Source of the DNA: an uncultured Ruminococcus sp.
GTDB taxonomy: Bacteria; Bacillota; Clostridia; Oscillospirales; Ruminococcaceae
Assembly (NCBI GenBank): GCA_946612185.1
Contig: CAMOEP010000025.1
Span: 1 to 14,383 of the forward strand
Direction of reading: 5' to 3'
DNA length: 14,383 nucleotides
The notes under the pieces are model-generated. The model had not been told where the DNA came from. It did no database searches and saw nothing but the letters and a program-made list of their open reading frames with translations. A program made the position numbers and the translations under genes. Shown here piece after piece: positions 1-13,665 of the stretch (position 1 is its first letter; every line of letters begins with the position of its first letter).

Positions 1-710
1 TTATCGAGGTAAATCCCCGTTCTTCAAGAACAGTTCCCTACATCAGCAAGGTAACAGGCATACCTATGGTAGACATCGCCACAAAGATAATGTTCGGCGC
101 AAAGCTGAAGGATATGGGCTACGAAAGTGGACTTTATCCGGCTGGTGACTATGTTGCAGTCAAAGTGCCTGTATTCAGCTTTGAGAAGCTTACTGACGTT
201 GACACTATGCTTGGCCCTGAAATGAAGTCCACCGGTGAGTGTCTGGGTATCGGCAGAAATCTGGAGGACGCACTCCTCAAGGGTCTGACCGCAGCCGGCT
301 TTGACCTGAAACGTGAAGGCGGAGTACTTATTTCCGTCCGTGACAGCGACAAGCAAGAGGTTCTGCCTATTGCCGATAAGTTCGAGCGCATGGGCTTTGA
401 ACTGTACGCCACATCAGGAACACAGAGCGTACTCACCAGAAATATGATCGCATCTCACCTTGTCCGCAAGATATCCGACGGCGAGCCGAATGTGGTAACG
501 CTTCTGGAAAGCGGCAAGATACACTATGTTATCTCCACTTCCGCAAAGGGCAGACTGCCTGAGCGTGACAGCGTAAAGATGCGCCGTAAGTCTATCGAGC
601 GCTCCATATGCAGCCTTACCGCAATCGACACCGCAAAATCTCTGGTAAAGGTGCTTGAATCCGGCAGAACTATCAATGACGTTGAACTTGTTGATATAAC
701 AACGATCTGA
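1..710 (+). CDS. carB: Carbamoyl phosphate synthase large chain, C-terminal part
   Basis: Partial gene, open at the left edge; the reading frame begins at base 3 and stops with TGA at 708-710. It makes carbamoyl phosphate from glutamine-derived ammonia, bicarbonate and ATP for pyrimidine and arginine synthesis, together with the small chain CarA. The visible 235 residues start with EVNPRSSRTVPYISK, the end of the second ATP-grasp (carbamate-phosphorylating) domain. Next comes the conserved VKVPVFSFEKL and LGPEMKSTGE stretch. From about GGVLISVRD onwards is the MGS-like allosteric domain, with the ATSGTQSVL phosphate-binding loop and an SICSLTAIDTA segment near the C-terminus. In this family the domain binds regulators such as UMP, PRPP or ornithine; which one applies here cannot be read from sequence. 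The frame is intact. A hairpin terminator follows 33 bases after the stop. Confidence 0.96.
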   Translation, partial: IEVNPRSSRTVPYISKVTGIPMVDIATKIMFGAKLKDMGYESGLYPAGDYVAVKVPVFSFEKLTDVDTMLGPEMKSTGECLGIGRNLEDALLKGLTAAGFDLKREGGVLISVRDSDKQEVLPIADKFERMGFELYATSGTQSVLTRNMIASHLVRKISDGEPNVVTLLESGKIHYVISTSAKGRLPERDSVKMRRKSIERSICSLTAIDTAKSLVKVLESGRTINDVELVDITTI

Positions 711-3026: not shown

Positions 3027-3806
3027 ATGAAAAAAACAAATAGTATTATTCTGACCTGTATGCTTCTTGCATCACTCACAAGCTGCGGCTCAGGAAAAGC
3101 AGCAAATACAGTTCACTCCGTAGACGACCTCAGCGGCAAGGTCATAGGCACTCAGCTTGGCACTACAGGATACATATTCGCAGGCGATATCGAAGGTGCG
3201 ACCGTCGAACCTTACAACAAGGGCGCTGACGCTGTTCAGGCACTCAAGCAGGGCAAGATCGACGCAGTTATCATCGACAGCGAGCCTGCTAACGTATTCG
3301 TCCAGAAAAACGACGACCTCCAGATACTTCCCGATCCCTTTGCTGTTGAGGAGTACTCCATAGCTTACAAGAAAGGCAATGACGAGCTTGGAAAGAAGCT
3401 GGACGATGCACTGACTGAACTGAAAAGCGAAGGCGTGCTTGACGAGATAGTTACTCACTGGGTAGGTGACAGCGCCGACAACGTTCCCTACGAGGACAAG
3501 AACTCCGACGTTTCCGGCGGTAAGCTGGTAATGGCAACAAACGCTGAGTTCCCCCCTTATGAGAGTATGAACGGCGGCGAGATATCCGGTATCGACGTTG
3601 ATATGATGAATGCAGTATGCGATAAGCTGAATATGGAACTTGTGGTGGAGAATATGGAGTTCGACTCTATCATTGCCGCAGTTGATTCCGGTAAAGCTGA
3701 CGTTGGAGTGGCAGGTATTTCCGTAACTCCTGACCGTGAGAAGAACGTTTCCTTTACTCAGGGATACGCTTCCACAACTCAGGTCATCATCACCCGTAAG
3801 GACTAA
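3027..3806 (+). CDS. Amino acid ABC transporter substrate-binding lipoprotein, circularly permuted
   Basis: Surface lipoprotein of the SBP_bac_3 (class II, polar amino acid) family, 259 residues, delivering a substrate to the permease and ATPase encoded next. The start at 3027 follows a GGGAAAG ribosome binding site and gives a lipoprotein signal peptide with lipobox LTSC (Cys20). Upstream in-frame TTG 2964 would spoil it. The domain order is reversed relative to the family. Residues about 31-147 match the normal C-terminal half: DDLSGKVIGTQLGTTG, KGADAVQALKQGKIDAVIID with Asp84, EEYSIAYKKGN and ELKSEGVLDEIVTHWVG. After an acidic linker (about 148-164), residues 165-259 match the normal N-terminal half: KLVMATNAEFPPYE, GIDVDMMNAVCDKL, MEFDSIIAAVDSGKADV, ISVTPDREK with Arg237, and QVIITRKD. 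All expected ligand-site motifs are present once, so the fold should be complete. Substrate unknown, perhaps a polar amino acid or cystine. Confidence 0.93.
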   Translation: MKKTNSIILTCMLLASLTSCGSGKAANTVHSVDDLSGKVIGTQLGTTGYIFAGDIEGATVEPYNKGADAVQALKQGKIDAVIIDSEPANVFVQKNDDLQILPDPFAVEEYSIAYKKGNDELGKKLDDALTELKSEGVLDEIVTHWVGDSADNVPYEDKNSDVSGGKLVMATNAEFPPYESMNGGEISGIDVDMMNAVCDKLNMELVVENMEFDSIIAAVDSGKADVGVAGISVTPDREKNVSFTQGYASTTQVIITRKD

Positions 3807-3809
3807 GCC

Positions 3810-4502
3810 ATGAGTGCCTTTACACAGAAGCTCTACGATACATTTATCGAGGGCGAACGCTGGAAATACCTTACAAACGGTCTGAAAACCACTCTGCTCA
3901 TCACGTTCTTTGCAGTAATAATCGGCATGGTTCTGGGTTTCCTCATTGCAATGGTGAGAGCTACCCACGACAAGACCGGAAAGCTGAAATTTCTCAATGT
4001 ACTGGCAAGGATATACCTTACAGTTATCCGTGGTACGCCGGTAATGGTTCAGCTTCTTATAATCTACTACGTCATTTTTGCAAGCGTCAACATCGACAAG
4101 GTGTTCGTCGGAATACTTGCTTTCGGACTGAATTCAGCGGCGTATGTGGCTGAAATAGTCCGTTCGGGAATCATGTCCATAGACAACGGTCAGTTTGAAG
4201 CCGGAACAAGTCTGGGACTGAATTACCGCCGCACAATGATATACATAATCCTGCCCCAGGCTTTCAAGAACGTTCTCCCGGCGCTGGCAAACGAAGCTAT
4301 CGTATTGCTGAAGGAAACCTCAGTTGCCGGATATATCGCCCTTGAAGACCTGACAAAGGGCGGCGACATCATCAGAAGCCTTACATATGAGGCATTCCTG
4401 CCGCTTATCGCCGTTGCACTCATATACCTTATCATGGTAATGATACTCACACGGCTTGTGGCACTTCTTGAAAGGAGGCTGGCTAAGAGTGATAGAGGTT
4501 AA
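3810..4502 (+). CDS. Amino acid ABC transporter permease (HisM/GlnP type)
   Basis: A 230-residue integral membrane subunit of a polar amino acid importer. It has about five hydrophobic segments and the family landmarks: [15 protein letters not shown] near the N-terminus, [16 protein letters not shown], and the cytoplasmic EAA loop [20 protein letters not shown] followed by [18 protein letters not shown]. The EAA loop contacts the ATPase. ATG 3810 follows the lipoprotein stop by three bases; its ribosome binding site (AAGGAC) is weak, suggesting translational coupling. The 3' end overlaps the ATPase start by 14 bases and contains that gene's AGGAGG site. A homodimer is expected because only one permease is encoded. 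Confidence 0.94.
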
Positions 4503-5214
4503 AAACCTGGAGAAATCTTTCGGAGAACTGCATATCCTCAAAGGCATCTCCACAACTATCGAAAAGGGCGAAAAGGTCGTAGTCATCGGGCCTTCCGGCT
4601 CAGGAAAAAGTACGTTCCTGCGCTGTCTTAACAGGCTTGAACAGCCTTCCTCCGGACAGATAATCTTCGAGGGCAAGGACATAACCGGAATGAGTGAAAA
4701 GGAACTGTGTGCAGTCCGTGAGAAAATGGGCATGGTGTTCCAGCACTTCCACCTGTTCCCGCACCTGACCATACGGAAGAACCTTACTCTTGCACCGGTG
4801 AAGCTGGGACTTCTCTCAAAGGAGGAAGCTGACAAGAATGCTATGGCGATGCTTGAAAAAGTAGGTCTTGCAGACAAGGCAGAAGCGTACCCCAATCAAC
4901 TCTCCGGCGGACAGAAACAGCGTATTGCTATCGCAAGAGCGCTGGTGATGAACCCGGACGTTATGCTATTTGATGAACCTACTTCAGCCCTTGACCCGGA
5001 AATGGTAGGGGAGGTGCTGAGCCTGATGAAGACCCTTGCTGACGACGGCATGACAATGGTGGTAGTGACCCACGAAATGGGCTTTGCCCGTGAGGTTGCG
5101 TCAAGGGTAATGTTCATGGAGGGCGGTTACATCGTCGAGGAAAACTCTCCGGATAAGTTCTTCTCAAATCCGGAAAGTCCCAGACTTAAAGAGTTCCTTT
5201 CAAAAGTACTCTGA
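4489..5214 (+). CDS. Amino acid ABC transporter ATP-binding protein (GlnQ type)
   Basis: Cytoplasmic ATPase that powers import through the neighbouring permease; 241 residues, the normal length for the family. Motifs are in order: Walker [10 protein letters not shown] (34-42), Q-loop [15 protein letters not shown] signature LSGGQKQR, Walker [14 protein letters not shown], and H-loop VVTHEMGF. The start chosen is GTG 4489, giving [12 protein letters not shown] as in homologues. AGGAGG at 4473-4478 lies 10 bases upstream. The frame stays open to TTG 4456, but those extra residues are inside the permease gene and unlike the family. It is last in the three-gene operon; a terminator follows after 14 bases. 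Confidence 0.96.
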
Positions 5215-13466: not shown

Positions 13467-13665
13467 AAAAAGAGATCCGCCTTGCCGTCATATAGCGAAT
13501 AAAACCCGCACGAAGCAGGTGGGTAAACGCCCAACTGATTCTCGCTCCCTTCTTCCGTTACCGGGAGGTCTGCAGTCCACAGCCGGAGCTGAATTCCCTT
13601 AGTAGATGTGTTGGATTATAAAAACTATAATTACTCGAACAAGGCAGAAGTCTAATTCATTTGTT
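13467..13665 (-). ncRNA. ssrS: Probable 6S RNA
   Basis: A structured, non-coding minus-strand transcript of about 199 bases between its own promoter and a terminator. The ends pair: CTGCCTTG (13647-13640) with CAAGGCGG (13484-13477), continued after a 2x2 internal loop by AGA/TCT, and followed by five U residues. This is the closing stem expected of 6S RNA. Other features resembling Firmicute 6S RNAs as I remember them are CCTTGTTCG just inside the stem and AAGGGAATTCAGCTCC followed by GGACTGCAGACC. Near the 3' side are GCGTTTACCCACCTGC and the local hairpin ACCTGC/GCGGGT. An internal hairpin ATTATA/TATAAT lies near the 5' side. 6S RNA mimics an open promoter and sequesters housekeeping RNA polymerase in slow growth. 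Ends are estimated from the promoter and U-run; an Rfam RF00013 match would settle it. Confidence 0.72.

Follow-up and report, generated by a model that had tools for sequence, protein, structure and literature searches.

The lipoprotein encoded at positions 3027..3806 of the forward strand of the window (the whole stretch of DNA analysed, 14,383 nucleotides of contig CAMOEP010000025.1 from an uncultured Ruminococcus sp.) is an SBP_bac_3 amino-acid-binding protein in which the two halves are exchanged. Judging from sequence comparison, it very probably serves the adjacent GlnPQ-type importer as a working amino-acid-binding lipoprotein, permuted at the first crossing between its lobes, likely by way of duplication, fusion and trimming. 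A cut at this first lobe-to-lobe crossing, giving the order C-N, is referred to below as CP1, where N and C denote the normally N-terminal and C-terminal halves; half-models of both were built from 19 homologues.

Gene and protein

The gene begins with ATG at 3027 and ends with a stop codon at 3804-3806, encoding 259 amino acids, so that its coordinates in the preliminary description were correct. Its parts are as follows.

3027..3086, + strand: signal peptide and lipobox (LTSC) with the presumed lipid-modified Cys20 (from the sequence)
3117..3470, + strand: residues 31-148, the C-terminal segment of normal SBP_bac_3 proteins (lobe 2, second crossing and C-terminal lobe-1 helices), with GTTG at 45-48 and Asp84 (from profile, structure alignment, half-models and model)
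3471..3515, + strand: residues 149-163, an acidic linker that connects the former C-terminus with the former N-terminus (from linker survey and model)
3516..3806, + strand: residues 164-259 and the stop codon, the N-terminal segment of normal proteins (lobe 1), with Phe175, Phe212, Gly230 and Arg237 (from profile, structure alignment and model)

PF00497 was the only Pfam family over its cut-off for the 259-residue protein (120.1 bits against 26.4; E 6.9e-35), and the match falls into two stretches, the best of which places residues 167-259 on profile positions 1-93. Aligned separately, the first segment corresponds to profile positions 84-131 and the second to 1-93. Solved structures repeat this pattern: residues 25-148 align with positions 105-233 of the AncQR chain 4zv1 and residues 165-258 with positions 10-104, each half once, and 6svf and 4prs give the same exchange. 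Among the matches listed (60 of 102 chains), only 6h30, a tandem SBD1-SBD2 protein, provides a stretch that runs from a first half into a second half. No sugar SBP family was matched, the matches being PF00497 and polar amino acid SBPs. The N-to-C profile order in one chain, which is usual in SBP_bac_3 without being a formal criterion, is absent from the window protein, and we class it as a permuted relative of SBP_bac_3 (PF00497). Chance is not a candidate for the swapped order, given the E-value of the match and the fact that 79 of the best 80 genome relatives share this order.

The preliminary description had interpreted the gene as a natural circular permutation with each half present once, as opposed to a tandem or broken duplicate. 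Both points are borne out by the half-by-half profile and structure matches in swapped order, the half-models and the single open frame, and the outcomes that it had named as speaking against this interpretation (normal order, two copies of the same half, or a frameshift joining two genes) did not occur. The structure prediction that it had proposed, made with AF2 for the single chain, is confident (pLDDT 86, pTM 0.81), also in the blocks of residues 151-160 and 161-170 that contain the linker (pLDDT 84 and 89). The comparison of this model with solved structures gave TM scores (normalized by the query) of 0.29-0.48 among the 50 matches listed; Foldseek and VIA-align are both bound to chain order, permuted superposition being beyond their scope, and low order-bound scores are what a permutation predicts, though they are not a proof of it.

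Cys20 is invariant in all 19 rows of the homologue alignment A1. Of 99 distinct single CP1 ORF records, 93 show a loose lipobox pattern; two of the six that do not are cut genes. The linker measures 15-16 residues in 100 of 106 CP1 ORF records, and the end point is likewise near-constant, the window protein ending at the hinge strand.

Operon and ligand residues

The binding protein is encoded separately from the permease gene, which starts three bases past its stop codon and is followed by an ATPase gene.

3810..4502, + strand: permease of the polar amino acid (HEQRo 3TM / BPD_transp_1) family (PF00528, 79.2 bits; TIGR01726 over its cut-off)
4489..5214, + strand: GlnQ-like ATP-binding subunit, whose gene probably starts with GTG and overlaps that of the permease (PF00005, 140.7 bits)

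The best NCBIfam matches of the permease were cystine and glutamine permeases, both below cut-off; that of the ATPase was GlnQ (320.1 bits, below the equivalog cut-off of 379). A permease and an ATPase lie downstream in 72 of the 80 loci surveyed, as separate genes in 68 and as an SBP-permease fusion followed by an ATPase in four; three further loci have a permease before the contig end, and five have neither, one of these at a contig end. A normal-order SBP adjoins five of the 80. CP1 genes with no permease or ATPase match within 4.3-5 kb downstream were seen in L096, L112, L120 and L127, which are possibly orphan binding proteins; since these four of the 80 loci lack both partners downstream, some CP1 copies may serve other permeases.

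In glutamine-binding protein (GlnBP) the ligand contacts presumably include Arg75 and Asp157 (numbering assumed). Their equivalents, the alpha-amino-acid clamp residues Arg237 and Asp84 of the window protein, are invariant in 28 of 28 CP1, 19 of 19 CP2 (a second permutation, described below) and 46 of 46 normal proteins, i.e., in 93 rows. Near the operon no Rfam family reached gathering score; the sole match over it in the window is a 6S RNA (RF00013) at 13470-13653 on the - strand (60.3 bits).

Distribution among relatives

All 14 loci of the genus that match P0001 near full length, in the genome of the window and in 13 of 35 same-genus genomes, have the C-N order, as does one more genome of the order (G042). 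Among 397 genome relatives the best 80 are all C-N, 79 of them in one frame; these 80 were picked by similarity to the permuted alignment and thus speak of conservation, not of prevalence. Two of the 80 come from isolates, one of Ruminococcus callidus (ATCC 27760) and one of R. flavefaciens (007c). The order is shared by homologues listed for Ruminococcus sp. 5_1_39BFAA and Blautia schinkii (names as in the source), and by 109 proteins of a set of 121 made up of the query and 120 listed hits. The impression recorded in the preliminary description, that similar proteins exist in gut Firmicutes, was right and even understated, and the survey of homologues and linked permeases that it had suggested agrees with its interpretation. 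In the one exception among the 80, L074 (4986-5774), the CP1 gene is interrupted by an in-frame stop (62 + 200 aa).

As controls, the half-models gave N-C in all six E. coli SBPs (GlnH, ArtI, ArtJ, HisJ, ArgT, TcyJ) and in each of the 31 SBP ORFs read in a phylum sample; these 31 were the best PF00497 matches, a choice that favours normal order. Two loci of the phylum sample that lie outside the class, L237 and L240, have C-N order together with a permease and an ATPase; by eye, L237 retains a short normal-junction stretch at its C-terminal end, and the long branches of the two leave their position in a quick tree unsure. Besides this gene, the genome of the window (assembly 73.7% complete) carries a single PF00497 locus, which is divergent and has normal order. 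Split hits in the same genus (e.g., G012:C20, G010:C28, G034:C35) appear to be SBPs in normal order. In L239 (G332:C8:70000-74500, 1660-2512) normal-order N and C halves lie in overlapping frames (153 and 134 aa), followed by permease and ATPase, which represents either a split SBP or a frameshift.

A second cut site

A second permutation, CP2, has the order C(66-118)-N-C(7-64), approximately the last half of the C segment leading. First found in three relatives, it was read in 27 clostridial genes (the count covers loci whose order was read, and L236, cut by a contig end, is excluded). The C pieces start at model positions 63-69 and end at 60-68; in all 27 the cut falls in the same loop inside lobe 2, and a lipobox-like motif lies ahead. 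The PF00497 matches of two CP2 proteins start at residues 118-124 and reach profile positions 98-107, with a second stretch elsewhere, whereas their normal orthologue covers 1-130 in one stretch. For one CP2 protein, among the matches listed (60 of 70 solved chains), the order appears only in the tandem 6h30. The AF2 model of CP2 is poor (pLDDT 53, pTM 0.55), which leaves the fold unconfirmed. In both CP1 and CP2 the folded chain that follows the presumed lipidated cysteine starts in lobe 2, in contrast to normal proteins, where it starts in lobe 1. Further CP2 candidates taken from hit ranges alone ('95..99-259') are left out of the count, as the similar G216 (90-259) turned out to be normal on reading (L157/L178). 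The preliminary description mentions neither this second permutation nor the recurrence, nor the tandem and fused proteins.

Tandem, fused and chimeric forms

Arrays of tandem units in which C opens and N closes the series, with a permease domain behind them, were found in L034, L035, L036, L163 and L164, the array of L163 sitting on a single 4.0 Mb contig, and single fused C-N-permease proteins in L037, L049, L078, L081, L100, L116, L140, L166 and L167. The arrays of L035 and L164 have N-to-C spacings of roughly the short length seen in normal SBPs, which would fit either pairing of lobes. L165 (3186-5042) contains a 619-aa ORF with a C-N unit from residue 390 to the end, the approximately 390 preceding residues being unmatched by the half-models.

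Proteins with 1.5 copies (C-N-C or N-C-N, 350-400 aa) make up 12 of the 121 proteins of the first set and 57 of the 111 new ones of the second, nearly all of them single-member clusters. As duplication intermediates they were rejected: compared by eye, P0084, P0122 and P0128 have near-identical starts and then switch to different normal SBPs near GMTVT. Such proteins are probably chimeras of short-read assembly, as their sequences suggest, and they were excluded from use. No clean duplication intermediate was found among the proteins compared, and for this reason we can only infer the origin by duplication and trimming.

Phylogeny

The tree of 93 SBPs, with halves brought into a common order, was rooted on E. 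coli HisJ/ArgT, the rooted version leaving out long-branch units (tandem arrays, five divergent normal paralogues, L041) and L153. Permuted and normal genes interleave in it, and at least seven changes of order are needed; CP1 appears in four places and CP2 in three, the window protein falling into a clade of 19 rows (97/100). Strongly supported branches force three changes for CP2 and one for CP1. A single CP2 clade is rejected (p-AU 0.0012), a single clade of all CP1 is weakly rejected (p-AU 0.039), and with the fused lineage set aside a single CP1 clade is not rejected (p-AU 0.14); CP1 and CP2 had been defined by order before the trees, and the subset without the fused lineage was chosen after a tree.

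In trees of the separate halves, made by a quick method, the window clade stays nearly or fully together, with two changes for N and one for C, which indicates that the halves were not spliced from unrelated genes. The tree of the unpermuted permease gene requires seven changes too; it comprises 49 of 58 loci (those with sufficient permease sequence), and its bootstrap has not fully settled. With weak support it splits the window clade, placing L037, L132 and L138 elsewhere and leaving L113, L123 and L129 unplaced.

The clearest case is the genus g81, in which L183 and L184 have CP2 and L185-L187 the normal order, all flanked by the same genes; L188 shares the operon, those neighbours being absent in the stretch read. 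Brought into canonical order, the proteins L148 (the L183 gene) and L158 (the L185 gene) are 81% identical. The CP2 pair is nested inside normal relatives in the SBP tree (91/95, 98/97). The presence of syntenic normal and CP2 orthologues indicates that permutation events occur in place. In the permease tree L183-L185 are closest kin (100/99), but the normal L185 joins the CP2 L183 (89/87), and a second event or recombination is thus possible in g81. The ATPase tree of this genus lacks resolution.

Discussion

The permutation looks like a working, recurrent design, not a sequencing error. The window protein would have the usual two-lobed (type II) fold, would bind an alpha-amino acid between Arg237 of lobe 1 and Asp84 of lobe 2, then close, and would dock on the neighbouring permease. 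As the alignment suggests, its new ends would lie at the hinge, the lipid-anchored N-terminus opening lobe 2 and the C-terminus closing lobe 1, while the linker would bridge the old termini and one of the two covalent crossings would be left. Its origin would most likely be duplication, fusion and trimming within the operon, and Clostridia would have seen several events of this kind.

As to the consequences, the chances seem to us even that the permutation is functionally neutral, i.e., that the fold tolerates new ends at both sites and that binding, anchoring and transport proceed as in normal relatives. The occurrence of both forms at one syntenic locus in g81, with ligand residues kept, agrees with neutrality, and so does the improvement of FRET sensors by engineered permutation of six periplasmic binding proteins, as far as the available part of the source describes it (PMC4168480, citing Okada 2009). 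The restriction of nearly all genes read to two cut sites, both of which put lobe 2 first, and the recurrence of fused CP1 point the other way, though they are suggestive only. According to the opposite proposal, Clostridia repeatedly permute amino-acid SBPs in place at two preferred sites, and the shift of the tether from lobe 1 to lobe 2 is selected for altered closure or docking (in CP1, with the lobe-1 end freed for fusion to the permease); we regard it as rather doubtful, the neutral reading being at least as likely.

With regard to recurrence, each type may instead descend from one old permutation, later masked as genes reverted, were transferred or underwent conversion between permuted and normal paralogues. 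This is a serious possibility, though not one that we would favour. The constancy of the cut sites (one loop for CP2, one hinge point for nearly all CP1) agrees with it, as do the single CP1 change forced by well-supported branches, the result for CP1 without the fused lineage and the signs of recombination in the permease tree (the weak split of the window clade and the grouping of L185 with L183); moreover, since assemblies switch at motifs common to paralogues, real conversion could do so as well. On the other hand, a single CP2 clade and, weakly, a single CP1 clade are rejected, the unpermuted permease interleaves as well, and the g81 pair is nested among normal-order relatives within a syntenic operon.

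Pairing of lobes between molecules (a domain-swapped dimer) or, in arrays, of N in one unit with C in the next, in which case the single chain would not be the functional unit, seems improbable: the short spacing in L035 and L164 is compatible with either pairing, but single-unit genes predominate among the loci read, their linker is near-constant and the single-chain prediction is confident. An artefact, whether through a frameshift, faulty assembly or two adjacent broken copies, deserves practically no credence, for although the window assembly is fragmented (433 contigs) and probable chimeric SBPs occur in metagenome assemblies, the single open frame in nearly all of the best loci, two named isolates included, the near-constant linker and end point and the single occurrence of each half contradict it. 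A permuted binding protein of the adjacent importer remains our preferred reading.

To our knowledge, natural circular permutation is usually pictured as rare and old. Here relatives that are 81% identical differ by a permutation at one operon position, so that the process could be studied almost stepwise, and they offer natural matched pairs for the effects of hinge connectivity and tether position on the binding protein and the importer. Designers of sensors, for their part, gain natural permutants of amino-acid-binding proteins. There are also practical consequences for annotation: order-bound profile and structure searches return such proteins as partial hits, and metagenome assembly at permuted SBP genes is suspect.

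Comparison with other binding proteins

What is new here is the permutation in SBP_bac_3, its two cut sites, its recurrence within close relatives and the permuted arrays, the permutation of an ABC transporter SBP as such being already known from TpMglB-2, the nearest precedent. No report of natural permutation in SBP_bac_3 was recognised among the open-access papers searched, subscription journals being mostly outside this search. The CIRPIN report describes many permuted pairs (PMC12667903); its main text contains no periplasmic, solute, substrate-binding, ABC transporter or amino acid-binding terms.

GlnH, ArtJ, HisJ and AncQR share with the window protein the PF00497 match, the ligand-contact residues and the linkage to GlnP/GlnQ-type genes. 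The window protein differs from them in its exchanged halves, and also, as inferred from the alignment, in an N-terminus on lobe 2 and a single covalent crossing. GlnPQ of Lactococcus lactis (6h30), to the extent that its available description goes, resembles the arrays and the fused CP1 proteins in having tandem amino-acid SBDs fused to the permease; its units, however, run N-C, in agreement with the 6h30 alignment, whereas in the permuted arrays C comes first and N last.

TpMglB-2 (Tp0684) of Treponema pallidum is, according to the accessible part of its report, a natural circular permutant for which 'Type Ic / Cluster Bc' was proposed; it binds ligand and changes shape, and it has homologues in Gram-positive gut bacteria (PMC4990184). 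Like the window protein, whose tether is predicted from its lipobox, it is a membrane-tethered, naturally permuted SBP of an ABC importer. It is, however, a type I (cluster B) glucose-binding protein, in which a cut inside the N-lobe sheet adds a fourth crossing and the permuted part is poorly conserved; the proteins considered here are SBP_bac_3 members with two other cut sites, a crossing would be removed in the window protein, and the permutation recurs among close relatives. In man-made counterparts, as far as the consulted parts of the sources describe them, the ends were moved as well, with the ligand response kept: in periplasmic binding proteins engineered as FRET sensors, where they lie on different lobes (PMC4168480, citing Okada 2009), and in permuted halves of the ribose-binding protein (PMC9815098), whereas the permutation in the window protein is natural and conserved.
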